Assembly: GCA_964059195.1 (NCBI GenBank)
Contig: CAXKWD010000006.1
Span: forward strand, 178,186,825 to 178,250,824
DNA from: Ectobius pallidus
Lineage: Eukaryota; Arthropoda; Insecta; Blattodea; Ectobiidae
DNA: 64,000 nucleotides
Direction of reading: 5' to 3'
The position numbers and the translations under genes were made by a program. The notes under the pieces were generated by a model. That model ran no database searches, had not been told where the DNA came from, and worked only from the letters and a program-made list of their open reading frames with translations. Each line of letters begins with the position of its first letter. Position 1 is the stretch's first letter. Shown here one piece after another: positions 4,459-49,400 of the stretch.

Positions 4459-5359
4459 TATAATATTCACAAGTAACAATTGATTATTTACTTTTTTATG
4501 GTAATTAAGTGCCTTGCCCTGTTGATTCAACACTTGTACATAATCACTGCTATTGTCTGGTTTCTGTCTTGTCTTGTGTTGTGTTGAATAATTGTTAGTG
4601 TACAATTTTTTCCGACCCAGTTCTAAAAATGGCCTTCCCTGCTACAACAGAAGAAAATGTCTCTGGGATTAGCAAACAATAAGCAACTCATTTCACAAAG
4701 ATGCCTGTAGACAGATGTATATATGTTTTCACTCTCTCATCTAGTGCCAGAGAAACAATTGAGTTTTAGACCATGATTTCTTGAGAAAGTTTGATAAGCA
4801 CATGAGGAGGAATAAGTGGGATAACTAGAATATTAACAGAATGAATATTACAAAAATCCCTCTCGTCAAGAATATTCCTTTATTTTTGAGAAATCGTCTG
4901 CAGGCGTACAAATATGCAGTCGCTTGTTCTCAGTTCCCAACAACGTATTCATTGCTATCAATTGATGCAAATTTGCTACTTAAAAAGCATGTGACCAGTA
5001 AGTTAAGTGATTGTTACTCCGGTACCGGTGAACCAATTTCTCCCAATATCAATATCCTATGGACTTTATAAGCGTGTAAACTAAATTTCATAGAAGTGTG
5101 ATAAAGGGTATTAGTTATCACACGTCCAATATGAAACCTTAATAATTCCATGTCCACATATCATCTATGCTTGCGTGTAGAGCTCAAGGTAGAGAAATTG
5201 TATGAAATTTGATGTTATATTGTTCTTAAGAAAGCAATTTAATTATATATATCTGTTATATGTGTCACGAAGATTGACGATGACTTTCTCTCACTTTTAA
5301 CTGTCATTTTACCTGTAGAAAATTCCATTCTTTTATTCTATCAAAAACAACTAAAATTA
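4459..5359. other. Non-coding flank with no recognised feature
   Basis: No convincing exon, RNA or repeat was seen. The open frames at 4381-4605 (minus) and 4841-5071 (plus) show no family similarity that I recognise. Confidence 0.4.
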
Positions 5360-5386
5360 CATAAGAATATTATAGGAGAAAAATTC

Positions 5387-5460
5387 CTCCGGCACTGGGA
5401 CTTGAACCCAGGACCTTTGGCTATTCGCGCCAATGCTCTACCAACTGAGCTAAGCCGGAG
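5387..5460 (-). tRNA. tRNA-like sequence, probably not a functional tRNA
   Basis: Read on the minus strand it has a D arm (GCTCAGTTGGTAGAGC), a 5-bp anticodon stem TTGGC/GCCAA, a perfect T arm (CTGGG, TTCAAGT, CCCAG) and a near-perfect acceptor. The anticodon loop is GCGAATA, which lacks the usual U33. It is embedded in a dispersed repeat. Confidence 0.4.
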
Positions 5461-5765
5461 TTCAATTCACAGCACCAGATGGAACCTCTCTCCTATGACT
5501 GATTGCCCCAAAGGTCTACCTCACAGACAGACAAGTCCTGTCATATGCAGTACTGTGAGGCACACTAAGTAGTGATTTTTGTGACCGGGCTCCCACTGTT
5601 ATTGTACAGTTAACATTCAAGATAGTTATATAAGCATTTAAGAACCACAAATTATTGTCTCTGTTGGACATTACATGAGAATATTATAGGAGAAAAATTC
5701 ATCCGGCACTGGGACTTGAACCCAGGACCTTTGGAGAGAGATTCTGTCTGGCACTGTGAATTGAG

Positions 5766-5839
5766 CTCCGGCTTAGCTCAGTTGGTAGAGCATTGGTGTG
5801 AATAGCCAAAGGTCCTGGGTTCAAGTCCCAGTGCCGGAG
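5766..5839 (+). tRNA. tRNA-like sequence, probably SINE-derived
   Basis: It is nearly identical to the unit at 5387-5460 but on the plus strand. The loop is GTGAATA, so the nominal anticodon would be GAA, but residue 37 is a pyrimidine and the left arm of the inverted repeat repeats its 3' half. It is more likely a repeat than a host tRNA gene. Confidence 0.4.
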
Positions 5840-6187
5840 GAATTTTTCTCCTATAATATTCTCATGTAATGTCCAACAGAGACAATAATCTGTGGTTCAT
5901 GAATGCTTATAGGCCTATAACTAAAATTATTTTCGCTTAATTCTTCTAAGGTATTTTTGTAAACATTTATGAATTGTGTTCTAGAGGGTGTGTATTTCAT
6001 GTTTACATAAATCCAACAAATTTCATAATACATGGATGTAATTTGCTCAGTACAAGAGTGATATTTTAAGCATCGGCAAAGCTAAATACAGCTAAGGAAA
6101 ACTGTTATTCATGTATGTAAGATGAAATAGCTTGCGAAGGGGTGACTTCTATGGCTTCCTGTCGAGAAAGCCATACAGCAGTCCTGT

Positions 6188-10700: not shown

Positions 10701-13700
10701 CCTAAAGGGATTTTTTTATTTCTTCTCAGCTGCCAACTGGAGTTCTCGCATCGCAAGTACTTGGATCCTGCATTCGTCCGATTTCATTTGAATGTTCATT
10801 GAATTCTTTATAACCAGGGCCTGGATTCTGATGACCTAAAATTGTTTGAAAATGACCTATAAAATGACCCTAAATTTTAAAGAAAATGACCAAAAAACTG
10901 ATATTTGATTTATAAAAAATTATTATTGTACACACATAGTTATAGACTAGTTTGTACATAATTGCAAATATCTATATTAATAAAAGGAAGTGTCTGTCCT
11001 CCGTCTGTCTGTCTTCCGTCTGTCTGTCCGCGATGCCCAGCGAAATCTACTCAACGCAGAGATCTGAAATTTTATAAGTAGGCGGACTAAAGGGTCGGAA
11101 TGTGCACCTCGAAGCCGGAATTTTAATTTTCGCCTCCGTTCGTGAGTTATGAGTGAAAAACTGGCAGAAAACGTGCATTTTTTTGCGTTTTAGAAGCATC
11201 AGTTTCAGTAATAAATTTCAATATCAAATAACTTACAGATGGCTTTGGCTATTTTTGTCAACATACCTCATAGCCTACCTTGAAAATAAAAGCAACGCGA
11301 TCGCTTGATTTTGTAAGTCCATCCTAGACGATTCATTTGTTTAGAGTGTCAAAGCCCACAGACAAATGACATTTTCAACCTACACGGAAGAAGGATAATC
11401 AACCCTAAATATGGTCAAACATTGTTCGATTTGAACGAAACTCACTATACAGGGGTTTTCTGGGCCAAGGAACTCGAATCTGAGGTCGCTACCTAATCGT
11501 GGAATGCACTCCACGTGATTTAGGTGTTAATAATTATAATTTGAAATAATTATCGCGGGGGAAGCCGCGGGCACATGCTGTTTGTCTGTCTGTCCACGAT
11601 GCCCATCGAAATCTACTGAACGCAAAGATCTGAAAATTTAAAGATAGATGGACTGAAAGGTGGGCGAATGCACCTCGAAGCCGAATTTTTAATTTTAGCT
11701 TTCGTTCGCGAGTTATGAGTGAAAAACTGGCAGAAAACGTGATTTTAGCGCTGTCGAAGCATCAGATTTCAGTAATACATTTCAATGTCAAATCAATTGC
11801 AGTTGGATTTGGCTATTTTTGTCATACCATGGAAATAAAAGCATCGCGATCGCTTGAATGTTGTAAGCCCACGCTGGTCGATTCATTTGTTTAGAATGCC
11901 AAGGCCCGTAGACATATGAAATTTTCAACCTACACGGAAGAGGGATAATCAACATAGACCTAAATATGGTTAAACATCGTTCGATTTGGACGAAACTCAC
12001 TATACTGGATTTTCTGGGCCAAGGAACTCGAATCTGAGATAGCTTTTACCAGGCAACGATATCTAATCGTGGTATGTAATTCACGTGATTTAGGTGTTAA
12101 TAAAATAATGATTTAACTATTATGCTCTTAATTTTTAATTCTTGAAATAATTATCGCGGGCGATCGCTTGATTTTGTAAGTCCATCCTGGACGATTCATT
12201 TGTTTAGAATATCAAGGCCCGAAGACATATGAAATTTTCAACCTACACGGAAGAGGGATAATCAATATAGGCCTAAATATGGTCAAACATTGTTCGATTT
12301 GGACGAAACTCACTGTACAGGGGTTTTCTGGGCCAAGGAACTCGAATCTGAGGTCGCTTTTACCAGGCACCGCTATCTAATCGTGGTATGTAGTCCACGT
12401 GATTTAGGTGTTAATAAATATAATGATTTAACTATTATGCTCTTAATTTTTAATTTTTGAAATAATTATCGCGGGCGAAGCCGCGGGCACATGCTAGTTG
12501 TAAATAACTGTAATGTTCTGAATGTTCATTTCTCATGGAAATTTATACTGACACTGAGGCACTGGCGAGTCAAAATTCGGCATTTCCTTTTGTGGCCTGC
12601 GGATTATATTGTTGTTTTTTGAGGGTAAACAGTAGTTTGCACTCTCAAATCCAAGCAGGTGCCAAGTCAATCTAATGACAACAGAAATATAATACAAAAT
12701 TTTGACGTTTCTTTGATTCTCATTTCCGACTGACACATGACAACACTTCAACACCGAGTGTGTCCTTCTTGCATTAAACAAACAACACTTCAAAGACAGC
12801 ACCGCTAGCGACGAAAAAAGTTAATACACTTAATGTAAATACATGAAAATGACTAAATAAGGAAGCAAATGACAAAATAATGACCTAAAATTGAAATAAA
12901 TGCTTTAAAAATATAAAATTGCATAAAATGACAAAAAATGACCTATTAAAAATGTATTTCTATAATCTAGAGGCCAAGATTAGGATTTATCTACAAGTTG
13001 GCAATGTCTATGCAGTATCAATAAAAAGATTACATGTCATTAGAATCCGGGCCCTGTTTATAACACATTACTTGCTTCTTAAAATCACTCAGTATCTAAA
13101 AAAAGGCTTCAAAGTGTCAAATTGACTGAAAGAGCAATTTATAAATATACATGTAATTATTTCTTTCTTTCTTTGTAGCGGACAAGTCATTTCGTGACAT
13201 GAAAGTCATAAAACAGTCACAATCGATCATTGTGTCTGGAGAATCTGGTGCAGGGAAGACAGAGTCGACCAAGTATCTGCTGAGATATTTGTGTGAGCTG
13301 TGGGGTTCGACGGCAGGACCCATCGAACAGAAGATTCTGGATGGTGAGTGTATCATTAATGCCATGTGTATAAAGCAGATGTTTGTATGTTCCTTTAGAC
13401 TGCAAATAGTATTTATGTTTCTGAAACCATGATCTAAGAAACAGTAAACATTTCAAATGGCTACAGTCCTTTGCTCTTCCCACATATAAAAATTACATTC
13501 TTTTGCAGAATTTCCAAGAAGTGGCATTGGCAAAGCAATTGAGGAAAAAGGAATAAAAAATAAATGAGGTTTCGAAATGCCCTTCAGATTAAATAATTTC
13601 CGAGGCTAAATGAACATGAATTAGCACATGCCTTTTTTACTTATTTCTTTCTTTCTTTCTTAAATTGGCATTTAATCTAGAAGCCTGTAGTCAGTTGAGT

Positions 13701-22700: not shown

Positions 22701-25700
22701 CGTGTTATAAAAGAAAGTGTATAGTTTAGGGTGGGTGGGTTTGACCAAATCATTAGTCGAGACAGCATCTCCTCTCCAGGGAACTATCTATAACAAAATA
22801 TGTGTTTTATGAGGAGAAAGTTGGTTTTCAAAGTGGGTCTCCCCACATTGCGATTTTACCAAATTTTGTTTCAATCTTTGAAAAAAGTGACAACCTTGGA
22901 GAGGAAATATGGGTAATCATCAAGTTGATTGTGAAGTTCCTGCAGATCTACAGGTGATGCTGCTCCTGCTAGCACTCGGTAATCACATATCGCAGAAGTC
23001 TTCAATGGTCTGCCTGCGATTTTGCAAGATCACAGCTCAAACAGTAATGACATTTTTGAGTGTATTGCCAGTTAAAGTCGTTCGGAATGATCATCTTCAT
23101 GAACCATTTTTGAACTACTGCTTGAGTATGGTCTAGGGCAGCATATCTCAACGTTTTTGAACGCGAGGACCTCTAAAATGTCTAAAAAAAATTACGGACC
23201 CCTAATTTTACATCCCATTTTTAGGGTCATAATAACGAAATAAATCTAAATACATTTCTTAATTCGACGAAAACACAGTTATTGAATTCGAAGTAATTAA
23301 TCCCTCATATCGTCATTAATAACAACATTAAGAGCCTAACAGTAACAGAACAGAAAATGAACTTTTGTTTTGTATCATTAAAATCAGTGTCCAAATTATG
23401 TCCCACCCGTAACAGATTTTGAGAAAAAAAATATAAAAATTGTAAAATAAATTTTAAATAATCTTTGCATGTAGTGTAGAGGAGAAGGCACTGTAAATTT
23501 TACAGAATGTGAAGAACCAATTCTAGTTTATTATTTATGATATGTAATAAACAAAAATAGTTTTTATAATTTGCTAGAATGTCCCACTCGTAATTATGAA
23601 ATGGCTGACTCCTTGAAGCAAAACATAAAGACAGAAAACTTAGCAATAAAAATCAGGCATCTATCAAATAAATTGTATGACTGTGAAAAAGTTTATATTG
23701 GACAAACAAAAAGGAGCATTGAGATTGGATTGAAAGAACATTGCATAAACATAAAGTTTTCAGACAAACAGTTGAATCCACAATAGGAGGACAGGCTACA
23801 GAAATCAGTAGAAAGGCCACAAGTCTGGGGAAAACAAACTTAGATTAATGAATTTCAATATAACAGTTTGATCAGAAGGTGCATCGATCCAATACCAGAG
23901 GGACTAAGATCAGATGTCTGATTCTCAGCTATCTATTGCCATTGGCGGCTGTGCAAGAAGCAAACCACTGCACATGTGAATTAATTTTGCAGATTTGATA
24001 GAGTCCAGAGGAACCGGCATCTTCAGTATTTTGGACGAAGAGTCCAAACTTCCGAAGCCTATGGCAGAACATTTTACGATGGAAGTTCATCAGAAATGGT
24101 CAGGACACTTTCGCTTAGCTCTGCCTAGAACATCACGACTTAAAGCACATCGCGACACCCGAGACAATGAAGGCTTCATGATACGTCATTATGCAGGAGC
24201 CGTGTGCTACAGAACGGTAATTATACTGATTTCAGTTGCTGTCTAGCGTGTCTCAACTGTTGAAATTGTTAGAATCTCTTTCAGAAACTTCATGACATCT
24301 ACAAGTAAGAATCAGCTTGAAAAATGTTATGTCATAACCGGGATTTGAACACGGATCTTCGGCTTAACGCTCCGATGCTCCGTCGAGAAACCTTCCGTGG
24401 TTTGCCTTGTCTTCTGAATCAGTTGAGGAATTTGATGTCAGACTGGCATGTTGTCATGGTAGCTCAATGGTAGAGCATCGGTGCGTTAAGCCGAAGATCC
24501 GTGTTCAAATCCTGGTTATGACATAACATTTTTCAAGCTGATTCTTACTTGTATTAATATCCCAGACATGGATTTAATGTCTATTTCCTTTCATTCCACT
24601 TAATTCATGACATCTTTTCTATCCTGTGCACATGTCGAGTCCATGATAGGGAGTGTGAACTTGGAGACCTCAGTGCCTTGCGAACCAATACGTCATGTAT
24701 TATGCAGTAACAGAAATCCCAGAGAAAACAAACATACTTTGAAACATTTGAAAGTTATGCTAGAACATGTTTTCTTCATCTGTGGAAATACACATTTCAT
24801 TATCCTATACAGTGGAATGTCTTTGGGACTGAAGGTGTATAAAGTAACATGTTAGAACTTAGGAAAAATCTTATGTGAAACTCGCATAACTTCCTCTGTC
24901 CAAATAAAAGTTAGCCTCTTAGTATATTATATTGACATTCTCTTCATGGAAATTGGTATTAAAAATGAAGAGATTGTCTTTACCACATCACATCGCATCC
25001 CTGAAGGATACATAACCCAAATAAAATCTGATTAATGCACTCACATAACTTTCTTTACCCTAAGTATGGGCAATACATTTTTCTCACTTCACATTCTGAA
25101 TAGAATAAGAGGCCATATTACAGTTGTTTCAACCTGATGCAAAGCTTTATTACTCACCAGAGTTTCTTTAAACAGTGGGTGGCTTATAATACCTATCCGA
25201 GAATTTTTTGGGAAAAAATGTTTCAAATAAAAGTTTTTGCTCTTGGTATAAAAACCCCATGTACAAAATTTAAAGGAAATAGTTCAAACCATTTTTGAGA
25301 AAATTGCAAAAAACGAAATTTTCTTTATGAAAAGTTCCCTTAAAAATAAGAGAAAGTTGTTGCCAATCTTCTTGTCACATCCTCAAAAAGTTAAAGTAAA
25401 GTAAAGTGTTCCCTATTACAGGCCATGGAGGCTCAGAGGGTCCGAGGAGGTTGAAGCTCCCAGGTTTTTAGACAATTGGCACATGAATGTGGTAAGGTTG
25501 TCAGCCTTACGCATCGGTTGCCTTTACCCCAGGATTTCTCCTGGTACTCATTTCTGTTAGAGGCTGAGTCAATCCCAGGGCCATCCTCAAAAAGTACCTA
25601 ACCCAAATACAACATTTTGTTTTCATACAATTTTCCGATTTGGAGCTAGGCTGTTCACACAGACACACACACAGACATGTTGACATTATTTGTAATTGTT

Positions 25701-31700: not shown

Positions 31701-34700
31701 GTTTTCCCGATTAATTTAATCAAACATGAGTACAATCAACAGATCCTATTGCAGTAGGAAAAGTGTATCGTTCCATTTTCTTTACAAAATATGTAAAGAC
31801 CTTTATAATCAATCACTGATGAGTTTCTGCAAGCTTTGTACTTATTTCTGTGCCAAAAAAACTATCAAATACACTGTCGTTGGTCATTTTAATTGGATCA
31901 CCTATTAAGGTTATTCCAAAATTTGTGAGAAATTTCTCCAACCTATGAGTAAACTATAATTTTTATTGATACCAAAGTCAACAAATTGCTCAACACTGAA
32001 TGTGTATTGATATGACACAGTAAAAGAAATTATTTTTACTAGTTCATGTTTGGGTGATAGAAGGCTGCGTGGTCTTGTGGTTAGCATTGCTGGCTACAAA
32101 TTTGCAGGCCCCGGTACCTCCCTTTCTGTGTTAAGGAGGTCTCTGAAACCATTATTAACAGTCGTGGGTGTCAGCATGCTGCCGTCTGCCTATGGTAGAT
32201 GATGCAGCGGTTGGGTGGTAGGCCTAGTCCCTTCAGGGATGCAACACCATGGAGTTCAGTGTAGTTTATGAGTGGCAAAACTCGCAACTTCATGCTTATA
32301 TAAATATTACTTTGTAGGAAAATTGAAATGGAAGCGAGGAGGAAAGCAGAAGAAGCAGAGAGGAAACGGCAAGAGGAAGAAGACAAGAAGGCCGCTGCAG
32401 CACTTCAGGTTAGTATCAGGCGTCCGAACGCACTCAAAGCTCAATTTTAATTTTCGGTTTAATTTGCAAGTTACAAGCGACAAAATGGCAGAAAAAGTTA
32501 TTTTTTGCGTTATCTAGGTACCAGATGTGGCTAATATACAGTGTGATCCATTTGAGATGTGAGAAAAGTAAAACGTTATATTTCAGAGGTTAATGTACAT
32601 AGCTCTGTGCAATTTGCTGTAATGTAAGTGGAAAGGATGGGAGTTAACAATGAGTGATGTTTCAGACTTCGGCCACATGGCGTGGCGGCGCTATCAATTT
32701 TATTAGCTCCTGCTTGATTTATTTGGTTAGCCTATAACATTACAATAAGCAGAGATGTGATTTTTTTTTGTATAGGGGATCATGAATGTAGGTCTAAATG
32801 GAAAAACATTGAACGATTTGGACGAAACTCACTTTGGGAGGGGGGAATTCTAATCTGAGGTTTTGTCGCGGGTAGCGTACTTTTAACCGTGAATTGCGCC
32901 TCAAAGCTGGATTTTTACCTTTTTAACTATCAATAGTTTTAATTGTTTATGCATGATTTGTGTAAGGTTCATGAATCTGTGAATCGTTTTAATCGTTTCA
33001 TTTCGAATCTGTATGCCCATATGACAGCACAAAATTAATTTTCTTCTATTTAATTATTTGTATAATTACTATGTAAAACAATGTAATTAAAAGTAAAATA
33101 TAATACCTGTAATTTACGTAAAACGATGTCAGTGGTAAAGAAAAAAAAATTATCTTGTTTTTGTAAAATTTGACAATAGAACACACTCTTATTGTTAAAC
33201 TTGTTCACTTTCCTAGTTTGTACTTTTAATGTCTCAAGTTTGTTGGAGAGAATTTTCACAGTCACTTGTCAGGGCCGTAGCTAGGTGGTAAGGAGATGTG
33301 CCCCCACCAAGGGCGCAGGTATAAAGAAGGCGCAAAATTAACCATGAAAAATACCACCTTTTTTAGACTGGTGTTATTTATCAAGCAATAAAAATTCTAG
33401 ATTTTATGATTTAATTACTTTTTAAGGACGGTAGTTCAGTCGTCTGAAAATAAGGTTTTAGTACCTTGAAAGTCCAACACTTAGTTTATTTTCAAATTGA
33501 GGTTTAGGTTTTCTTTGTTAATAATAGTGTTTTTATATTAAAATAAACAATTTTATATGAATTTTAAAAAAATGTCTAGACCCCCCAGTGTAAGAGGGCG
33601 TAGATTTGTCAAACTCACCAAGGGCGCATAAGGACCTTGCTACGGCCATGCAGCTTGTGTGATAATTTTCTCCACCTATTCATGGCCACTGTGACCTACT
33701 AGCGATTTACTATGAACTAAGTACTCACTGGCTGTAAGTCGCCACTGGGTTGTGGCGAGTGATATTGAGAACGCCTGGTGGTATACCAGGATATGTGAGT
33801 AAGAAGGAGAATTTAATGTTGTACTGGCATGTTGCCATGGTAGCGTAATTGGTAAGATCAGCGGCACAGAAGAGCCGATGATCCTGGTTCAAATCCCAGC
33901 TGTGGCATTGAATTACCTTTCCATCATAATAATTTTCTTAGTGTTTATTGTATAGACGAATATGATATTAGAGGTCTCATTGCAGGCTCAGTTGGAAAAG
34001 GAAGCGATGGAAGACGCTGAGTACAGGGAACAAATGGAGCAGGAAAGAAGAGATCATGAATTGGCTTTGAGACTCGCGCAAGAAACCAACGACCAGCTGG
34101 AAGAGATGTCTCCGGAAGACAATAAGAGGTACGACATTGGCTTCAGACAAGGAAAAGTCGGTGTTATTACATCAAACCTGCCTAAACAGCCAGTCACACA
34201 GGCTTGCAAGTTAAACTAAATAATGTGCGGTCTGCCAGATTATATTGTTGTTTATTGAAGGTAAACAGTAGTTCACTTGAGTGTGTCCTTCTTGCATTAA
34301 AGAAACAACACTTGAAAGACTGACTGCTTTAGGCAGGTTTGACTGCTCTTGCCTCATGCAAACGTTATAAGTACGTTACATTTGTGGTTGATATTGCTTG
34401 GTTGTAGGACCGGGCGGGCAGGCATCAGGAGCCCACAACCAAATGGTCTGAACAGGTACCGTATGCGTTGTTGTCCTGCTTGGCTTTGTCACTAACCTAA
34501 CTAACTTGATAACCCATCACGTCGTACACTTCTCCTTCTGAGTGGTGTACGTGTAGATGTCGATGCTAACCATTGGTTTTATTCTTCGCTAGATGGCTCA
34601 TGCTGTGTGAAGGAAAACAGGGTGGGGCTTTAGCGGAGTCCCCTGTGCGAGTAGCGAGTGATCTCGAGACGTTACATTGTGCAATTTTAGTTGTTCGATA

Positions 34701-37700
34701 AGAAATTATAAATAAACCAAAAATATCAAGCATACCATGAGAAAGAAGCCAAATGTACACCTCCTGGGAGTAGTGTCGGGAGATCTACACTCTCCATTAT
34801 TAATTGTAGTGTTTTCGGTTTGAAAAGAGGTCTTCGCTTTTAGTAACCCATCGTAATTCACAATGGAGATTCAACGAGCTCCGTAGGTATTGCACTTATG
34901 TAGGCTGTACTTATCTAGGCTGCTTGAAGTTTACTTTCCTTTTCATGACAAAAACATTAAATACAAGCAACAGAAACACTGCTGTGATGTAGTAATGTAG
35001 TTTGTGTAGCATGGTAGCAGTAGTGTGAAACTTAAGTTTAAAACATTATTTTTGCAGATCAATAGCCATTAACTACGTTTTTTTGAAATGAAATTTCAAA
35101 GGTTAAAGAAATATCATCTTTTTAGCAAAAAGTATCTTCATAATTTTGTGCTCAATTAAATCCATTCAAATCATAAAATTTATTTTTCCGACTTATGGTT
35201 AATTGACACTTTGCAATGTTTTCAAGCTATTAGTTACTAAGTTGTAGACTTGGTTCCTCGTCTTCCTGCTGCATTGAAGACAGACCTGATGTAATTAAGG
35301 AAAATGCCACGTCTGAATGCATGTATCAGTTTGTTAATATGTGTGAAATGTTTATCTTGTCTTCCCGGATTAGGTAGCATTCTGTTATTAATTTGTGAAG
35401 AACAAACAAAACATAGTGCTGCGTGGGTCGAGGTGTTTCCACCAGATGACATTTATATTGCTGTACAATGGAATAGACTAGAATAGAATTCTATTTACAC
35501 ATACTTTTACATACATAGTTATCTGCATCCACTTTAAATATCTCTTATCTATAAGTCTAGCACTACCCACTAAGATTCCCTTCATACTATAACCACTGGG
35601 TTTAGTGTATGAATGGGGATTCTGGTTAACTTACCACACCTTTCCTGATTATTTTGCTCTTGATCTATTTCCTAATTTTTCTCATCCACTTCTCTCTCAT
35701 TTTTCCTAAATATTCCTAGTCTTTTCTTCTCTGAATTTCAACATCTTGATGGTTATTATCTCATTATGAAGTTTATCCCACTTTGTCTCTCTGATTTCTT
35801 CCCTCCACCGTCTTACCCCTTCACATTCCGTTAAGTAGTGTGATATTCCTTCCTCTCTGTCCTTCCTTAACCCTTTCAGATATATCACCCCTGTTCTCAT
35901 CCATGCATATCCCTCTCTTCCTTGCCTATCACAACAATCCACATATTTCTCCCTTCCCTGCTCTGTTTATATAGCTGTAAGAAGTGAGCCGGTATGGGAT
36001 ATTGGTACTGGAGTTTTTTCAGTTGTCATACCAAACTGACTACGGTATTAAATGCTCGATTTTGAGATGTTTTTTCTTTAGAATGGATTCCTGTTATATC
36101 AACTGCAGATATAACCTTGGCAAGTGCGGGAACACATCAGACTTTATAAAGAAAATAGCATCGATATCTCAGCTATAGCTATACTTCCTGAAAATTCCAC
36201 TCCATCCACGCAGCACTTGGTTTTGTTGTGATCATTCTTCGAAGACAATGTTAGGAATATTAGAATTTAGTACTTGAGAGGAATACAAGATAAACATTGT
36301 AGAGTGTGTAAGCATATGAGTGGAGACTTAATACACTGAACTTCACTAAATATTTGTACTAACCTGGACCGGTTTCGGGATTACAACTTTACCCCATTTT
36401 CAACGTACTCCGACTGATGTTTGTGTTGTATGGGCACCCTCCCGCGGACGTCCTGTGAACCTCCTGACCAGGTCATCTTCTGTTGGTATTTCAAAGTTCA
36501 TTAGGTTATCTGCATTCTTCTGGATAAATATCTTCTCCCAGACTGTCAGTTCACTATGTCCGTGGGCGCACTTAACCAACTTAGGTTCTTGTTCAACTTC
36601 ATAGTTCATGTTCCAGACATGGGCTGCTACTGCGGACTTTTCAATTTGTGCATATTTGACGTGTCTTTGGTGTTCCTTCATCCTGGTCTCTGTATTTCTT
36701 TTTGTTTTGCCTATGTATTTTTGTGGACAGTTTTTGCAACTAAACTGGTAGATGCCCAATTTTTTCAGGTGTTGTACTCTCTCTATGTTGGTAGACCTTA
36801 ACATATTTCCTAAACTGTATCTATTAACCGGGGCTAAGGTGATGTTGTGGTCTTTGAATATTTTCTTGAATTTTATTGTCCATTATTGGGTGGTAGGTGA
36901 TTTTCCTGTATGTAGACTTCTGCTCTTTTTCCGGTTTTAGTGTAGTCAGATCTGCAATTTGTTTTTGCCTATGATATTTTCTCATGGCCTACATGGCCTA
37001 CCAAAGATCCATAAACCCGGCAACAAGATGAGACCTATAATCAACAACATTAATGCTCCCACTTACTATCTGGCAAAATGGCTCAACGTAAGATTTACTT
37101 CTTTCCCAGAATATGAAAGCAGAGGTATCAAAAACTCATTCGAACTCATTGATAAAATAAAACGCATAGAAATTTCTCCAGCAGATCAACTCGTATCATT
37201 CGATGTAGTAGCACTATTTCCGAGCATCGATAATGATAAACTTCTGAAATACCTTACTAATTGGCTGAGATCAAGTGGATTTAGTGATAACACTATCAAA
37301 GAATATGTCTCATTAACAAACCTATGCATTAACCAAACATATTTTACATTCAATGGAAAATTTTATCAACAAAGGCAGGGACTAGCAATGGGGAACCCAC
37401 TATCACCCTTCCTAGCAGACCTATATATGAGCTACTTTGAGACTCATATTACATCAGCCTTCCCACATATGTACAAAACATGGTTGAGATACGTGGATGA
37501 CATATTCGCCATAGTAAATGAAAAACATATACAAGATGCATTAAAACTACTTAATATCCAGGACCAATCAATCAATTTTACTCTAGAGCAGCAAACTGAA
37601 AACCATCTCCCCTTTCTGGACATAAAGATCACAAAACAAGACAATAGGCTGGAATTTGGAATTCACAGAAAGGAAACTCACTCGAACAACTACATAAAAG

Positions 37701-40700
37701 CCAATAGTTTCAACCCTATCAATCACAAACATGCAGTACTGAACAGCTTAACTTATAGATTAGTGAATTTACCACTCAGCAAAGAGGAACACAAGAAGGA
37801 ATATGAAACAATTATTAATACAGCACAACTAAATGGATTCCACAAAGAACTGGTCGACAAAAAATTGAGAAAATATCATAGGCAAAAACAAATTGCAGAT
37901 CTGACTACACTAAAACCGGAAAAAGAGCAGAAGTCTACATACAGGAAAATCACCTACCACCCAATAATGGACAAAAAATTCAAGAAAATATTCAAAGACC
38001 ACAACATCACTTTAGCCCTGGTTAATAGATACAGTTTAGGAAATATGTTAAGGTCAACCAACATAGAGAGAGTACAACACCTGAAAAAATTGGGCATCTA
38101 CCAGTTTAGTTGCAAAAATACATAGGCAAAACAAAAAGAAATACAGAGACCAGGATGAAGGAACACCAAAGACACGTCAAATATGCACAAATTGAAAAGT
38201 CCGCAGTAGCAGCCCATGTCTGGAACATGAACCATGAAGTTGAACAAGAACCTAAGTTGGTTAAGTGCGCCCACGGACATAGTGAACTGACAGTCTGGGA
38301 GAAGATATTTATCCAGAAGAATGCAGATAACCTAATGAACTTTGGAAGATGACCTGGTCAGGAAGTTCATAGGACGTCCGCGGGAGGGTGCCCATACAAC
38401 ACAAACATCAGTCGGAGTACGTTGAAAATGGGGTAAAGTTGTAATCCCGAAACCGGTCCAGGTTAGTACAAATATTTAGTGAAGTTCAGTGTATTAAGTC
38501 TCCACTCATATGCTTACATATTTAATAACTTCACTGTGTAAACTTCCTTCATTAATTACATAATTGTAGAGTGTGTTTATGCATGCACCCAGCACGGCCA
38601 ACATTAGCATGATGTGTCCTTCACTTTCTGTTTGCTAAGTTAATTTATCCTCGTCAGACTACTTGGAACAATTGTCATGGGTTCCATCCTTGTTACAGAG
38701 AGATTCAAGCATGATGTGTAATTTGTGTAACATTCGTCTTGGTGTTGAGTGTGACACCATAACAAAACACTTACAGCATGAATAACATATACAAGTAAAG
38801 TTTGTGCTTTTATTCATTAGGGTTGTATCCTACAGACATGGTCCCAGAATTACGGGTCTGTAGAGGTTAAGTTTGTGAACATTTTGATTTTGGATAGCAC
38901 ATTGATGACTGGCAACTCCCTCTGTGTGAGGATATGTGTACTTTTTACAGTTATTTACAATGTCAAACCGTTATATAGAACTTCAGGCAAGCACAAAGCT
39001 AACAATTTGCTTATGCTTAGAATAGTAATCAAAAACTTTTTGGTAATTCCGTATGTGGTAAAATTCTGGCTCTTTTGGTTGGCAACAATTAGTTTTAAAA
39101 CAAATCACATTATGAAACAGTTGAACATGCCAGAAACATCTGCGTGTATTGAATTGTGATCTATTTGTAAATGCGTCTATTTCTCTCTTGAAGATATACA
39201 AATGGAAAATATTGAAACAATATTGACAAATCGTGTGCTATGATAAGGAATTGCATATTTTAAATGAATGAGCAGAAATGAATGTCATAAGTAGTGTTTT
39301 GAGTGATAAACTAAATATTATGTTGGCTTACGATTGTCCTTTGTCAGAAACATAACTGCTGGTATCGACGTTCAGGACCAAACTGTTTTTGCTGTAATAG
39401 TTATATATGTTATTTTGATACACGATAATAGTAGTAGTATTGTAGTGGTTAAAATGAAGGAAAGTGATGCAAAATCTATTTTCCAGGGTGACAACCCAGA
39501 ACCTTCTTTTTTTTTTTTTTCAAACATACCTAATATTTTTAAGTGATGGGAAGATATTTTAACCGTTCACAACAAACAATGGTAATTCATAAAATTTACG
39601 ATATGTACTCTTATTTTTGCTTATCTCTCACATTCATACGCCGCATGTTTGATGTTACGTTATATTGTGTCGCAGGTCGGAAGTTGTGAAATCCGTGCAA
39701 GCAGCCCAAGGCAAACAGAAGTACGACTTGTCAAAATGGAAGTATTCCGAGCTACGAGATACCATCAACACGTCTTGCGATATTGAACTACTTGAGGTAA
39801 GTTTGAGGTTATAGCTGTTATAATTATAAGATCTCTTCCCAGGGTCTTATCTAGGTGGTTGTATGGAGAAATTTTCCTTTTGGGGCTGATGGGGCATTTG
39901 GAACCTCTTTGCACGGGAAACACTCGATAATGTTCACATGATGGCAACATTATAAAGTGTCGTCACCATTCTGACTGAAGTCACTCAGTCCAAAATGTTA
40001 GTTTTGAGATTCAGCTTTGCATACATGGACTGCTTTATACCAATGTGGTAGTAAATATAACTCAAATTGGCCAGTTAGTTTAGTTTATGAATGATTCATG
40101 TGTTGTGATTCTGTTGTAGGCCTGCAGAATTGAGTTTCATCGTAGGCTGAAGGTTTATCATGCATGGAAGGCCAAGAACAAAAGGAGGACGACAATGGAT
40201 GAAAACGAAAGAGCTCCTCGTTCTGTTATGGATGCAGGTATACCAACATTACCATCCTACCATCCTCGTTTGCATTTGATGATTACTTTTCATTTCTTGC
40301 AGGGTTGGTGTAATTTCCTGTCCTTGTGTTTCAGCCAATAAGATTCCACGTGCAGCTGTAAAGACGCCAATAAATACGAGTTCTCAGAGATACTTTCGCA
40401 TTCCTTTCATTCGGCCCTCGGTAACCGCCAACACAACAGCGCTGAATGAGTCTGCAGGGCAGAAGCGCGGCTGGTGGTACGCCCACTTTGATGGCCAGTA
40501 TGTGGCGCGCCAGATGGAGCTGCACCCAGACAAGCCAGCGATTCTTCTCATCGCTGGTAAGTAACAGAAAACTAAATCAAATTAATTTAAATTAATGCTT
40601 CGAGCACTGAGCCTCGCTCAGTTTAATGGTCTAGTTTGATAAGCATATGTGAAGGAATATGTGGGTAGTGTTATTTGTCAAAGCTATATGTATTGCAACT

Positions 40701-43700
40701 TCCAAAGCCGTATATGAACACTAAAATAATATGTTGTCATAAGAACAGATTTCCAGTTGATAAATTCTTTCTAATATATTACCATAAAATAGGCACTAAA
40801 TTCCGTATTATTCCAGTACCGGTCAACCGATTTGGTACAATATCAATAGGCTTCTTCCCATGGTTGTTATAAATGCGTGTACCAAGTTTCATGAAAATGT
40901 GATAAAGCGTATTGAATTATCGTGAATACAGACACTTGGACAGATGGAGACGTTCTGGCACTTAATAATCAAATATAATGACACTTTTTAGCAAATATGT
41001 ATGTAACAATGGCAATGTAGCGTAGTCTAAAATTATAGCAGAAATACACAAATTATTAGCCTGTAATTTCTTAAAACTGTTTTTGAACATAATGTTTAAA
41101 TAAGTTTTTAAAAAATTCTAAAGGTAAGTAGGTAGGCACAGCAACAAACCTCCGGGTTACATAAAACTGGTAACAGTCGTTTAGCTTGCTTAGGAATTGT
41201 CTATTGCCACTGAGACTTGAAGCTCTCCTGTCTGGTCGTCTTGTGGCACAGGGGATGCATAAGAGAAGCAAACACAGTGGACCTGGGTTGGAATCCTAGT
41301 CGAGGTGGGGTTTTTTTCCGGGGTGTTTCCTCATCAGACAAATTTCAGGTTACTTTAGGTCCTTGTGGTCCCTGGATATCATCTGGCCGTCATTATCATC
41401 TTCATCCCAACCTCGCCTTCGCCTTGTTTAGAGTAAATGTGTGTTCGTCTTGTTTCGGAGGTGGCCTCGGCATTGTCAGTAGATAATCCCTCTCCTGACG
41501 GACGCTGCCCTGAATGTGGGTGCGTAATTCCTAGAGAAGTGACACCCATGCCCATACAGTGTGTGAGAGCTGCCAGCGCTATTGAGTATAAAGTAACTTA
41601 ATAAAACTCTGTATTTATAACTAGCTTGAAAGACACTTACGGCTTGTACTGCTATTTCCCAGTAAATCATTTATCTACCCTCTTGTCTACACTGTGTGTG
41701 TGGACGATTCCATAAGGCTATACTTAACGTACATAAAATATCTTATCACCATTTGAAAAAGGGAAGTTTCTAGTGTAATACGGCAGACGTTCAGGCGGTG
41801 ATCCCATTCATGCCAAACTCTCTTCAACGTGTCTTGTGTGATGATCTTGATGGCTGTGGTAATGCACCTTCTCAATTCCGGCAAAGTTACTGGAAGATCC
41901 GGTGAACGGGGTGGCCATGTGCAGATCTGGCTTCATCCGTGAGTTGTGGCATTGACCAATTTTCCAACATGTCCAGGTAAATGTTGGTAATGCAGCCATT
42001 TTCTCTGAACAACTGTTTCCCTCTACACGACAAATGAAAATCAGATGTACGCTACAAAACTTCTTTCAACCTACAAGCAATGCTTTACTCGCAGTGGCTT
42101 CCTGTAGCATGCGAGTGAGATCGCTAAGTCAGCACTTGACAATATTCCCGGAGAGAGCGCTACGAAATATATTTTTGTCTGCATTAAAAGAGAATAGGAG
42201 TTGTTACAGCGTGCTGCAGCGCATTAGCACACGATCATCGACTGCCCCTGATCATAGTAACAAGAAAACTACAATTAACTTATTGTTCTTAAATGCAATA
42301 TAGGACTACACGAAAACCAATCCGAGCAAGGTGGCAGAGGTAAAAGGTTCTGTTATAGCAATATAAAAATTGAGTCAATTTTTGTGACACTTACTTCACT
42401 TGAGTCCTCTATTTGGAGACTAGTTTCGGGAAGTTATTCCTCCCATATTCATTCCATTTTGACTGCTGCTTGTTGCTACTTGACTGCCCTCTGGTTTCTT
42501 TAAGATGAATTTATTGAACAGGTCATTGGAGGCCCTGCCTCCAATGACCTGTTCAATAAATTCATCTTAAAGAAACCAGAGGGCAGTCAAGTAGCAACAA
42601 GCAGCAGTCAAAATGGAATGAATATGGGAGGAATAACTTCCCGAAACTAGTCTCCAAATAGAGGACTCAAGTGAAGTAAGTGTCACAAAAATTGACTCAA
42701 TTCTTATATTGCTATATTAGAAAAACTTCACTGTTACTAACTTCCTGTAATAATTAATATTTAAAAGGTTCTGTGTTCAGATCTCAAACCTCATGGCTTG
42801 ACTTTTTCAAGGTTTCCTAATTTACAAGTGCAAACCCTGACTTGTATGGGTTGACTACATCGCCACTGTATCACCCAACATCATTAGCTTTTAAACTAAA
42901 ACAAATTATCAGTAATCGCAGTATTTACAATTGTGAAAGCAAAAAGAGGGAACCTACTCTACTGGGATTGAACCTGAAACCTTTCACACTGCAATCTCAG
43001 ACATTTACTACGTTTTCATGGTGAATACACTTGTTGCATTGAAAACGAAAATTCAGATTGATTTGAGTCTCAGGGTTGAATTTCCTACAAAAGTGATAAA
43101 GACTCGTCCCCTTTTCTTTATATTCTAATCAGGTCGGAGACTCTGAAGGCACTGACTTATGGGCATGTCACCAGTGTCGTGGGGGATTTATTCTGGAAAT
43201 AGAATGAATAAAACCTACATTATAGGTCAACGCAGTGTAGCATCTCAAGAGGTAATGCAAACTTCCAGGTGAATCGGATCTGGAAACACGTGTGGGAAAA
43301 GTTCAAAGCATAGAAAACATGTTCAAAATGTTGCCAGAGTTTAAACATATCTTATTTTAGGATTTAGGCTATATTACTTTTGTAGATACAAGCGTTCTAT
43401 TCATTCCAGGTCCATAACTCAAAGCTGTCTATTTCCTTCCGGTCTTGTTTGTTTTTATTGATGCCAGAGTCCTTGAGAATTTTCTTCAGCTTTGCCACTG
43501 CTGCTCATCCTAGACGTTGTTCCCAAAAAGTTGAAATTGTCTGCACTTGTTCAGCTGTCCACCTTTTGCTTTTTCCAGGTTCTTCGCTTTTCTCTTTAAC
43601 TCTTTTCAGTCATAGGGAGGTAGTGTTGCAGTTGTAATGAATGTTCGTATGATTGCAGGCTCCGACGATATGCAGATGTGCGAATTGAGTTTGGATGAGA

Positions 43701-47185: not shown

Positions 47186-48128
47186 TCATGTAAGTCTGGG
47201 TTTCATCAAATAGATAATATTCCTTCAGCTTGCTTAGGAATTGGATAACAGATCACCTACTGGGACTTCGTCATGACTGGATATAATGAATAAGTCAGCT
47301 CCAATAAATTCCAACTCGTCCAAAGCCAACAGGAAGTCACTGTTTTACCACAAATAGATCCTTCGCTCCTGATAGGCATTTTTACAGAATTACAGGACCT
47401 CAAATTTCCAACCAGCTCACTTCTTCTCAGAAGCTAGGACGTCCTTTTAACGTGTAAGTTACTTTCAAAAGGTGGGCGAGTTGTTTCACAGTTATGCAAC
47501 ATAGCAGATGTCAGCACTGTAAGTATCTTGAGCACAGTTGGAGACATAATCACTTTACTGGCTATTGGGTTGTCTTGCTGTTCCCAATGTTTTCTACAAT
47601 AGGGAAAAATAAGTGAAAATACATAAAAAAAATACAGTAATTAATTACAATCAGCTATTCTCTATGCTGTACCAACCTCATAAAACTAAATCATAGAGGC
47701 TATCTGTAATATGATTACTTAAGCTCATGGGCAGATACGTCTTAGTTGCCTGATGAATTCTCGTAATCCTAGAGTGGGTGCGTGGTGTACGCTTTAACAT
47801 CTGAGCTAAAGCTAAATGTCTGGTGACACAAGCAAACATCTTGATAATATATTTTGACAATACAGGAAAAGTTTTTATTGCTTTCAGTAAGAAATAAGCC
47901 GGGCGCATGGTGTACAGAATACTCCGCCGCTGCTGTGATCGCTCTAACACAGCAAGTGATTAGGTGGCTGTAAGATTGAAACTGTCAAGTTCAAGTATCT
48001 CGTCTGAGGTTACAAGACTACGTGTGAAGAGTACTTAGGTACACTCCCACAGCAAAGTGAAAATGGTAACAAATCAATATTTGTAAAGTATTGACTCCTC
48101 AAGTAAGAATCAGCTTGAAAAATTTTAT

Positions 48129-48201
48129 GTCATAACCGGGATTTGAACACGGATCTTCGGCTTAACGCGCCGATGCTCTACCATTGAGCTACCATGACAA
48201 C
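48129..48201 (-). tRNA. Inverted tRNA-like unit of the same element
   Basis: Near-perfect inverse copy of 48328-48401, so both strands of this element carry RNA polymerase III-like boxes. Confidence 0.4.
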
Positions 48202-48327
48202 ATGCCAGTCTGACATCAAATTCCTCAACTGATTCAGAAGACAAGGCAAACCACAGGAGGTTTCTCTCCGTGAGAACACACATCCAAATGGCGTCGACGC
48301 CATTGAGGAATTTGATGTCTGGCATGT

Positions 48328-48401
48328 TGTCATGGTAGCTCAATGGTAGAGCATCGGCGCGTTAAGCCGAAGATCCGTGTTCAAATCCCGGTTATGACAT
48401 A
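48328..48401 (+). tRNA. tRNA-like unit of a fold-back element
   Basis: Acceptor TGTCATG pairs with TATGACA allowing one G-T; D arm GCTCAATGGTAGAGC; anticodon stem TCGGC/GCCGA with loop GCGTTAA; T arm with TTCAAAT. The loop lacks U33 and the T stem has a mismatch, so it is probably not translated. Internal A and B boxes could drive RNA polymerase III. Confidence 0.4.
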
Positions 48402-48493
48402 AAATTTTTCAAGCTGATTCTTACTTGTATTAATATCCCAGACATGGATTTAATGTCTATTTCCTTTCCTTCCACTTAATTTATTGACTCCTC

Positions 48494-49400
48494 GTTTATT
48501 AAACGCAATACCAGGGTCATTCTAATACGCTCTGTGTATTATAAACAAATGGTTAGAGCCTTAACAAGTAATAGTTTTGATTGTACAGGGTTTGAAGTAT
48601 TTGTCTGACAAAAAATGTTTCGTAATGTCTAGAAGCCAAAATAAGTATTTTAAAATTAAATCTGTCTGTCTGTGTGTCCATTTTTAAGACCTTTTTTTGG
48701 AATTCTATCAAACCAGAAAGAATTTTGCTGTAACTGAAATATTAAGGGAACTTTTCATGTAACTTTTTCAATAAAATAAAAAATGCTCTAATGATTTTAA
48801 TAAAAATGTAAATTTTGAAACTTCTATATTTGGCTGAAAAAATGGCTACATTGGTTTTTCTGTAAAAATGACGTAGGGACCTCGTGTCATTTTTTATTTT
48901 TCTACACTATTTCCAATACATGAAAACTTAGCGCAGTGAAGTTGTAGAGGAAGTTAAATTGAACTTTTTTGTCGTACATGTTTTTACACCTACTAGATGT
49001 CAAGATAGAAACGAAATAAATATGACGTAAATGCAGAATGTCCGTGCGTAAATTATTAATTAGAAATGAAAGATGTTCTTTTGTTTCCCATAGTAACAAG
49101 AACACTATTATTAACTTATTATTGTGATGTTTCTTATTGATTAAAATTTAACATGTATATGTTTGAAAGTTCGTACACTGTTTATTTGTATTTATTTTTT
49201 CTGACTTCACCATAATTCAAGTTACTGCTTCAAAGATATCAATGCAAAGAAAAAATCTATTCTTAATTCTTCAGTACAAAGTTTATATGAAGAAATATAT
49301 TGTGCATTCTATAAATGTTTCATAAAAAGAGCTTGTAACAAATTTAAATGTTCTCATTCCGAAATACCACAATCACTTGCGAAGCTGGTGCAACACAACT
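48494..49400. other. Intergenic, nothing recognised
   Basis: AT-rich, with short TE-like texture near 48660-48690 ('tctgtctgtctgtgtgtcca'). No gene. Confidence 0.4.

Follow-up and report, generated by a model that had tools for sequence, protein, structure and literature searches.

Short tRNA-bearing fold-back retroelements of Ectobius pallidus, very probably inserted by the enzymes of Penelope-like elements

The genome of Ectobius pallidus contains short, non-coding, tRNA-bearing retroelements, which were very probably inserted by the reverse transcriptase (RT) and GIY-YIG endonuclease of Penelope-like elements (PLEs), following the mechanism proposed below. Our starting point was one fold-back copy in the window, i.e. 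the whole analysed stretch of 64,000 nucleotides, which belongs to an assembly of 2.12 Gb. The initial annotation had suggested that this copy represents a non-autonomous partner of PLEs. In support of this idea, the tRNA elements and PLEs have the rule of one tailless and one tailed end (A and B), a duplication of about 12 bp and the flanks AAAC-N12-GTTT in common, all of these being hallmarks of insertion. The tRNA elements are thus most likely non-autonomous and mobilised by PLE enzymes, and the data suggest that they borrow Penelope's copying machinery.

The copy at 48100-48481 of the window had been described as a fold-back bearing one tRNA-like sequence per strand, with a 54-nt tail on one side only and a duplication of 12 bp around the whole, and direct reading, ARAGORN and Rfam confirmed this description. 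The target-site duplication TATTGACTCCTC is read directly at 48089-48100 on the left and at 48482-48493 on the right (both unstranded). The left arm (48100-48295, minus strand) corresponds to monomer positions 245 to 52 in antisense orientation and has the tailless end A as its outer end, whereas the right arm (48303-48477, plus strand) corresponds to monomer positions 117 to 295 in sense orientation and terminates in the tailed end B. ARAGORN predicts a tRNA-Asn(GTT) in each arm, at 48127-48199 (minus strand) and at 48328-48400 (plus strand), and both score 55.7 bits with Rfam RF00005, for which the gathering threshold is 29 bits. The inverted arms 48100-48208 and 48319-48427 are complementary over 109 nt to 100%. 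Shortly 3' of the right-arm tRNA the sequence reads TTTTT (48405-48409, plus strand), which resembles a pol III terminator. The tail, which is the stretch from end A to end B, is present on the right side only (48428-48481, plus strand). The GTTT of the target signature is found at 48494-48497 (plus strand); the left side of this copy reads AAAG. The layout is not due to chance, as it recurs genome-wide and in a second Asn-family copy of the window (24289-24615, plus strand), which has the duplication TTCATGACATCT with AAAC preceding the left one.

The building unit of the Asn family is a monomer of about 295 nt, which harbours one tRNA and is often arrayed head-to-tail. Counted from a start point of our own choice, it comprises the tRNA (about 146-218), TTTTT, site A (about 245-257), the tail, and site B (about 295). 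Site A ends with ...CTTACTTGTA and site B with ...CCACTTAATT, neither of which is a simple repeat. At one locus (L009), for example, three monomers (two of them full) point one way and are followed by four (two full) pointing the opposite way. Since the unit is a one-tRNA monomer in frequent head-to-tail arrangement, the palindrome is made during insertion and is not present in the building unit. Instead of a SINE with two heads, the element is a tandem monomer with a single internal tRNA. The one-sided tail is real, but it is no addition. As the tail precedes B, and B runs straight into the next monomer in arrays, it is the stretch between two alternative ends and also occurs within internal monomers.

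A search with a 34-letter pattern of the Asn tail, allowing up to two mismatches, yielded 3,818 forward and 2,581 reverse matches genome-wide, about 6,400 in all, which are not to be equated with insertions, because a single insertion may hold several; the reversed control pattern gave zero matches genome-wide. The strand imbalance suggests at least one very long head-to-tail array. Two Asn arrays contain different elements of about 760 bp that look like DNA transposons by eye (L063, 3499-4259; L065, 2137-2900); both are A/B fold-backs with this further insertion inside.

Two more families were recognised. The Phe-like family has a monomer of 314 nt and is represented in the window by a fold-back at 5349-5929 (unstranded) with the duplication AACTAAAATTA, AAAC at the left, and tRNAs detected by ARAGORN at 5386-5460 (minus strand) and 5766-5840 (plus strand). 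Repeats at 11018-12500 of the window, spaced by about 314 and 566, appear by eye to be unrelated to this element. The Ser-like family was read by eye at two loci, one with a fold-back, a 13-bp duplication and AAAC/GTTT outside (L059), the other with a copy in a single orientation (L057). A stretch of the window with a 75% match to the Asn monomer (33809-33914, plus strand) was assigned by eye to the same family. In a genome search for Ser-like sequences (40 scored of 3,568 first-look candidates), tandem and inverted neighbours occur among the matches listed. The region 5' of the tRNA is related between the Asn and Ser-like families (score 47; shuffle maximum 24), while a similarity between the Asn and Phe-like families is unsupported (score 17; shuffle mean 16.1, maximum 26).

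From the 42 tail places or place clusters that come first on contig C1, 40 were used to describe the ends of insertions; the two left out are an A/B fold-back (L017) and a place near 28.76 Mb. The sample was drawn from exact tails only, which favours young copies, and was not picked by similarity to the window copy; the classification relied on the largest hit group per locus. A/B fold-backs account for 30 of these 40 tail-ascertained loci. Nine loci have a single orientation only (six with B, three with A), and the remaining one (L059) is a merged row of a Ser-like and an Asn copy, of which the Asn copy alone is A/B. Duplications of 10-15 bp were found in 28 of the 30 fold-backs, with exactly 12 bp, the mode, in 17 cases; in the other two no duplication was found. 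As a control, the left and right flanks of different insertions share longest words of 3-11 nt, and of 4-6 nt in 401 of 500 draws. The recurrence of fold-back, tail and 12-bp duplication across copies is thus borne out, and the tail-ascertained sample does not consist mostly of single tRNA heads with A-like tails. B/B insertions, which would be visible with tail-based ascertainment, are absent from the 40 loci, whereas A/A insertions without an internal tail escape it. In the Phe-like family, 11 of 12 hand-picked loci are A/B fold-backs, with duplications of 11-15 bp.

PLEs are abundant in this genome. The RT of the window PLE, used as a query, had 14,846 first-look candidates; 105 of these were scored and gave 106 matches, among them several head-to-head pairs. 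We picked 18 pairs by the head-to-head arrangement of their RTs, not by a tail, and could resolve 16, the fetched piece having missed an end in the other two. The resolved pairs represent about five PLE families as judged by end sequences. In each of the 16, a tailless end is paired with a tailed one; the tail measures about 40-50 nt, and the duplication 9-13 bp with a mode of 12. An independent even choice of ends would give 16 mixed pairs with a probability of 0.5^16, i.e. about 1.5e-5. The layout of the tRNA elements is thus found in the resolved PLE pairs as well. In the window itself, a PLE at 36296-38574 (plus strand), the 3' part of which is also present in inverted form at the left, is bounded by the duplication ATTGTAGAGTGT with AAAC and GTTT outside. 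It contains an RT (PF00078; 36941-38125, plus strand) and an inverted GIY-YIG piece (PF01541; 36400-36882, minus strand). Another fold-back at 42341-42774 (plus strand), with a PLE-like 3' end and tail by eye, is a near-perfect palindrome with 186-nt arms and a 3-nt spacer, flanked by the 13-bp duplication TAAAAGGTTCTGT with GTTC outside. This is probably a PLE 3' fragment that was inserted by the same route as the tRNA-element fold-backs.

An alignment at the duplication revealed AAAC before and GTTT after it in Asn insertions (42 chosen by us, 27 from the C1 sample and 15 others), in Phe-like insertions (11) and in PLEs. The motif GYT occurs at position +1 outside the duplication in 22 of 56 Asn flanks, those of the 28 C1 fold-backs with a duplication, whereas the offset positions that served as a control have it in 15 of 504 cases (p = 2e-19). 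The corresponding values are 14 of 32 versus 8 of 288 for the PLE pairs (p = 5e-14; 17 of 36 flanks when both window PLEs are included) and 6 of 22 versus 8 of 198 for the Phe-like family (p = 2e-4). At least one side shows GYT in 13 of 16 PLE pairs, versus 5.8% of random 12-bp windows from the C1 loci, and in all five bounded window insertions examined (two PLE, two Asn, one Phe-like). In this comparison, which spans Asn, Phe-like and PLE insertions and uses offset positions and random windows as controls, we regard the common target signature as the strongest link of the tRNA elements to PLEs, because the flanking bases are part of neither element.

According to passages of an in vitro study, purified anole PLE protein cuts and extends both target strands and prefers AT-rich DNA (Frangieh et al. 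2024, PMC11167929). In the same passages, the RNA has two adjacent internal sites at which reverse transcription begins, and the PLE tail corresponds to the stretch from one to the other. By analogy, ends A and B would be these two internal start sites (PMC11167929). It is reasonable to propose that a PLE protein would bind a multimeric transcript of the tRNA element and that its endonuclease would cut the two target strands at AAAC^N12^GTTT with a stagger of about 12 bp. Both cut strands would then serve as primers for reverse transcription, which would begin at the internal site B for one strand and at A, located about 48 nt upstream of B, for the other. Joining of the two same-sense cDNAs at a variable point would give a fold-back with a tailed and a tailless end and a duplication of about 12 bp. 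Direct support from the present sequences exists for the monomer, the tandem arrays, the A/B rule, the duplication length, the common target signature and the arm identity. The two internal start sites and the cleavage and extension of both strands are carried over from published PLE biochemistry (PMC11167929), and we infer the action of PLE enzymes in trans on this RNA, a multimeric transcript, a single template RNA for both arms, and the order of steps. The evidence against a role of PLE enzymes includes the nine of 40 Asn loci without a fold-back. Moreover, the anole protein showed no strand-dependent choice of start site on the target in vitro (PMC11167929, in the passages considered), whereas A is paired with B in the genomic copies analysed here.

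From sequence comparisons, the tRNA fold seems to be kept. Among 122 complete regions from 55 insertions, the two commonest tRNA forms (42 and 36 regions) differ by one anticodon-stem base pair, G29-C41 versus A29-U41. In 52 distinct Asn-, Phe- and Ser-like tRNA sequences, 94.2% of the cells are paired, and two-sided changes occur at six of 19 pairs, although these go back to a small number of events that many copies have inherited; 40 of the 52 sequences lack one T-stem pair. Slid structures pair in 28-47%, a biased control, given that these very sequences served to derive the structure. Three of five covariation measures lie above all 500 shuffles, while two do not exceed the shuffles, namely the pairs with a two-sided change (6 versus 5.7) and the further pair types (19 versus 18.7). 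Relative to the majority, substitutions amount to 3.4% in the 5' part, 1.8% in the tRNA, and 1.4% each from the tRNA to A and in the tail. TTTTT also follows the tRNA in the Phe-like array and in the Ser-like copies read. Since TTTTT is located behind the pol III boxes, a transcript from an internal promoter should stop there and not span the element. Together with the internal position of the tRNA (146-218 of 295, with the start point that we chose), this would disfavour a SINE driven by a pol III head.

A more far-reaching reading, which we put forward only tentatively, is a guild of tRNA-bearing PLE parasites. Three families or more, among them the Asn-, Phe- and Ser-like ones, would use the start-site pair and the endonuclease of PLEs, with the Asn- and Phe-like families lacking detectable similarity 5' of the tRNA; the tRNA-like fold, kept by compensatory changes, would be a required cis element; and two RTs, each primed from one strand of the staggered cut, would copy one RNA in tandem, as reflected in the A/B rule. 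Here the tRNA fold may serve, e.g., the processing or circularising of the multimeric RNA by host tRNA enzymes, thereby replacing a hammerhead ribozyme.

Information on the template comes from the similarity of its copies. After removal of hits under 88% identity, 176 monomer pieces from 60 loci were compared. Within an insertion, identity is 99.0% both between opposite arms (105 comparisons) and between same-strand monomers (71 comparisons), versus 96.9% for monomers of different insertions (11,250 comparisons). Therefore, the arms and monomers of an insertion stem from one source RNA or from very similar ones. One might think of a tRNA-bearing retrozyme-like element with a circular RNA template, in which the tRNA fold replaces the hammerhead ribozyme. 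Tandem monomers of about 300 nt that are 99.0% alike within an insertion agree with the passages on metazoan retrozymes (PMC7229834), and the monomer lengths of 295 nt (Asn) and 314 nt (Phe-like) lie in the range of 150-450 nt for the tandem monomers of retrozymes. However, neither Rfam nor a motif scan detected a hammerhead in the monomer, with a weak positive control (Rfam in none of six PLE 3' pieces, the scan in two of 14 PLE pieces) and hence a low sensitivity to minimal forms. Furthermore, the inversion points are scattered without clustering at the tRNA ends, so that there is no sign of cutting there. Only one and two of 102 are within 3 nt of the 5' and the 3' end, respectively (expected 2.4 each), and template cutting at the tRNA ends was rejected as a general mechanism. 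Ten of 51 inversion points are near-palindromic, more than the 3.6 expected, and seven of these ten are among the 30 C1 junctions. On balance we consider a retrozyme-like element unlikely; it is compatible with mobilisation by PLEs and not opposed to it.

We also looked for PLE sequences in the tRNA elements and vice versa. The RT query matched three and the GIY-YIG query five of the first 68 loci, six different loci in all, and in the sampled loci these matches are located outside the A/B monomer fold-backs. The tRNA element was thus rejected as an autonomous PLE, since RT and GIY-YIG are lacking and 30 of the 40 sampled insertions are monomer fold-backs. At two loci (L015, 475-1924; L034, 1427-2767), a diverged PLE is interrupted, between its RT and GIY-YIG parts, by an Asn array that has its own duplication; such nesting may be due to chance or to preferential insertion into PLE sequence. 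A tRNA is absent from all 20 fetched PLE 3' pieces, no PLE with a tail or leader matching the tRNA element was present among the fetched PLE pieces, and the tails of both differ in sequence by eye. Nor is the region 5' of the tRNA clearly similar to three PLE leaders: nine comparisons were made, and the score of the best one was reached by 5 of 300 shuffles, those of the other eight by 74 to 273. It is quite improbable that the monomer is the pLTR of an autonomous tRNA-carrying PLE family, of which we see internally deleted members. Although the copies have a layout identical to that of PLEs, which form tandem and partial-tandem structures with pLTRs (passages in PMC11167929 and PMC3846280), an RT-bearing family copy was not seen among the first 68 loci (a non-exhaustive set), the two arrays with their own duplication interrupt diverged PLEs, and the 20 PLE 3' pieces lack the tRNA.

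In three PLEs (L121, L123, L125), site A falls within the loop of an AU-rich hairpin or next to this loop; the hairpin is closed further out by AAGTGAAGY...RCTTCACT; this closing stem covaries by eye between PLE families (AAGGGAAG/CTTCCC in one). The fold energies of the A-site hairpin are no better than those of shuffles, and among the tail regions no stable fold was found, none beating shuffles by more than about one standard deviation.

An ordinary tRNA SINE moved by a LINE, with fold-backs due to accidental inversion or twin priming, would explain the tRNA-like sequence and the 10-15 bp duplications but is highly improbable, as fold-backs outnumber all other forms in the sample (30 of 40), A and B are fixed ends neither of which is poly-A or a simple repeat, the tRNA is internal (146-218 of 295 in our numbering), and the target flanks agree with those of PLEs.

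In the textbook case, LINEs have SINEs as their non-autonomous partners, and tRNA-derived SINEs, including Twin SINEs, are short, non-coding and possess a tRNA-like module. If mobilisation by PLE enzymes is true, a high-copy tRNA-carrying counterpart of PLEs would extend the SINE/LINE rule to the third retroelement class, and the many insertions are a natural record of PLE integration. The A/B pairing and AAAC-N12-GTTT suggest two-strand priming by an enzyme pair, a step that the 2024 in vitro study left to be worked out, according to its passages (PMC11167929). A literature search by title and start of the abstract, with subscription papers and Repbase outside its scope, found no report of tRNA-bearing PLE-dependent elements.

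Compared with tRNA-derived SINEs including Twin SINEs (see also PMC3272025), the elements presented here have an internal tRNA, two fixed 3'-type ends, fold-back insertions and no A-rich tail. Metazoan retrozymes are likewise non-autonomous and consist of non-coding tandem monomers of about 300 nt, but in the passages of PMC7229834 they are defined by a type I hammerhead ribozyme, which was not found here; the tRNA element carries its tRNA-like sequence instead. PLE inserts in general are described as having pLTRs in inverted orientation and short duplications, and a tail may be present at one of their ends (Arkhipova et al. 2013, in passages of PMC3846280). With Penelope/Poseidon-type PLEs, the tRNA elements have in common the tailed/tailless fold-back, duplications of about 12 bp and AAAC-N12-GTTT flanks in this genome, as well as a tail as described in passages of PMC3846280 and PMC11167929. 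Unlike these, they have no RT or GIY-YIG, and they carry the tRNA-like sequence that is missing from all 20 PLE 3' pieces. Movement in trans has a precedent in Adineta vaga, where PLE activities moved a host NRPS gene located between pLTRs (passages in PMC3846280). This case resembles ours in the transfer of non-PLE sequence, the target-site duplication, and the direct and inverted repeats; yet it is one clear event with recognisable PLE pLTRs, whereas the tail of the present family has about 6,400 matches and PLE sequence was not recognised in it. A further comparison is with Penelope elements of heliconiine butterflies (PMC6685494), which are also short, PLE-type and non-autonomous; the passage considered is silent on a tRNA and on structure. 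Non-autonomous PLE-type elements are thus already known, and what is new is the tRNA and the scale.
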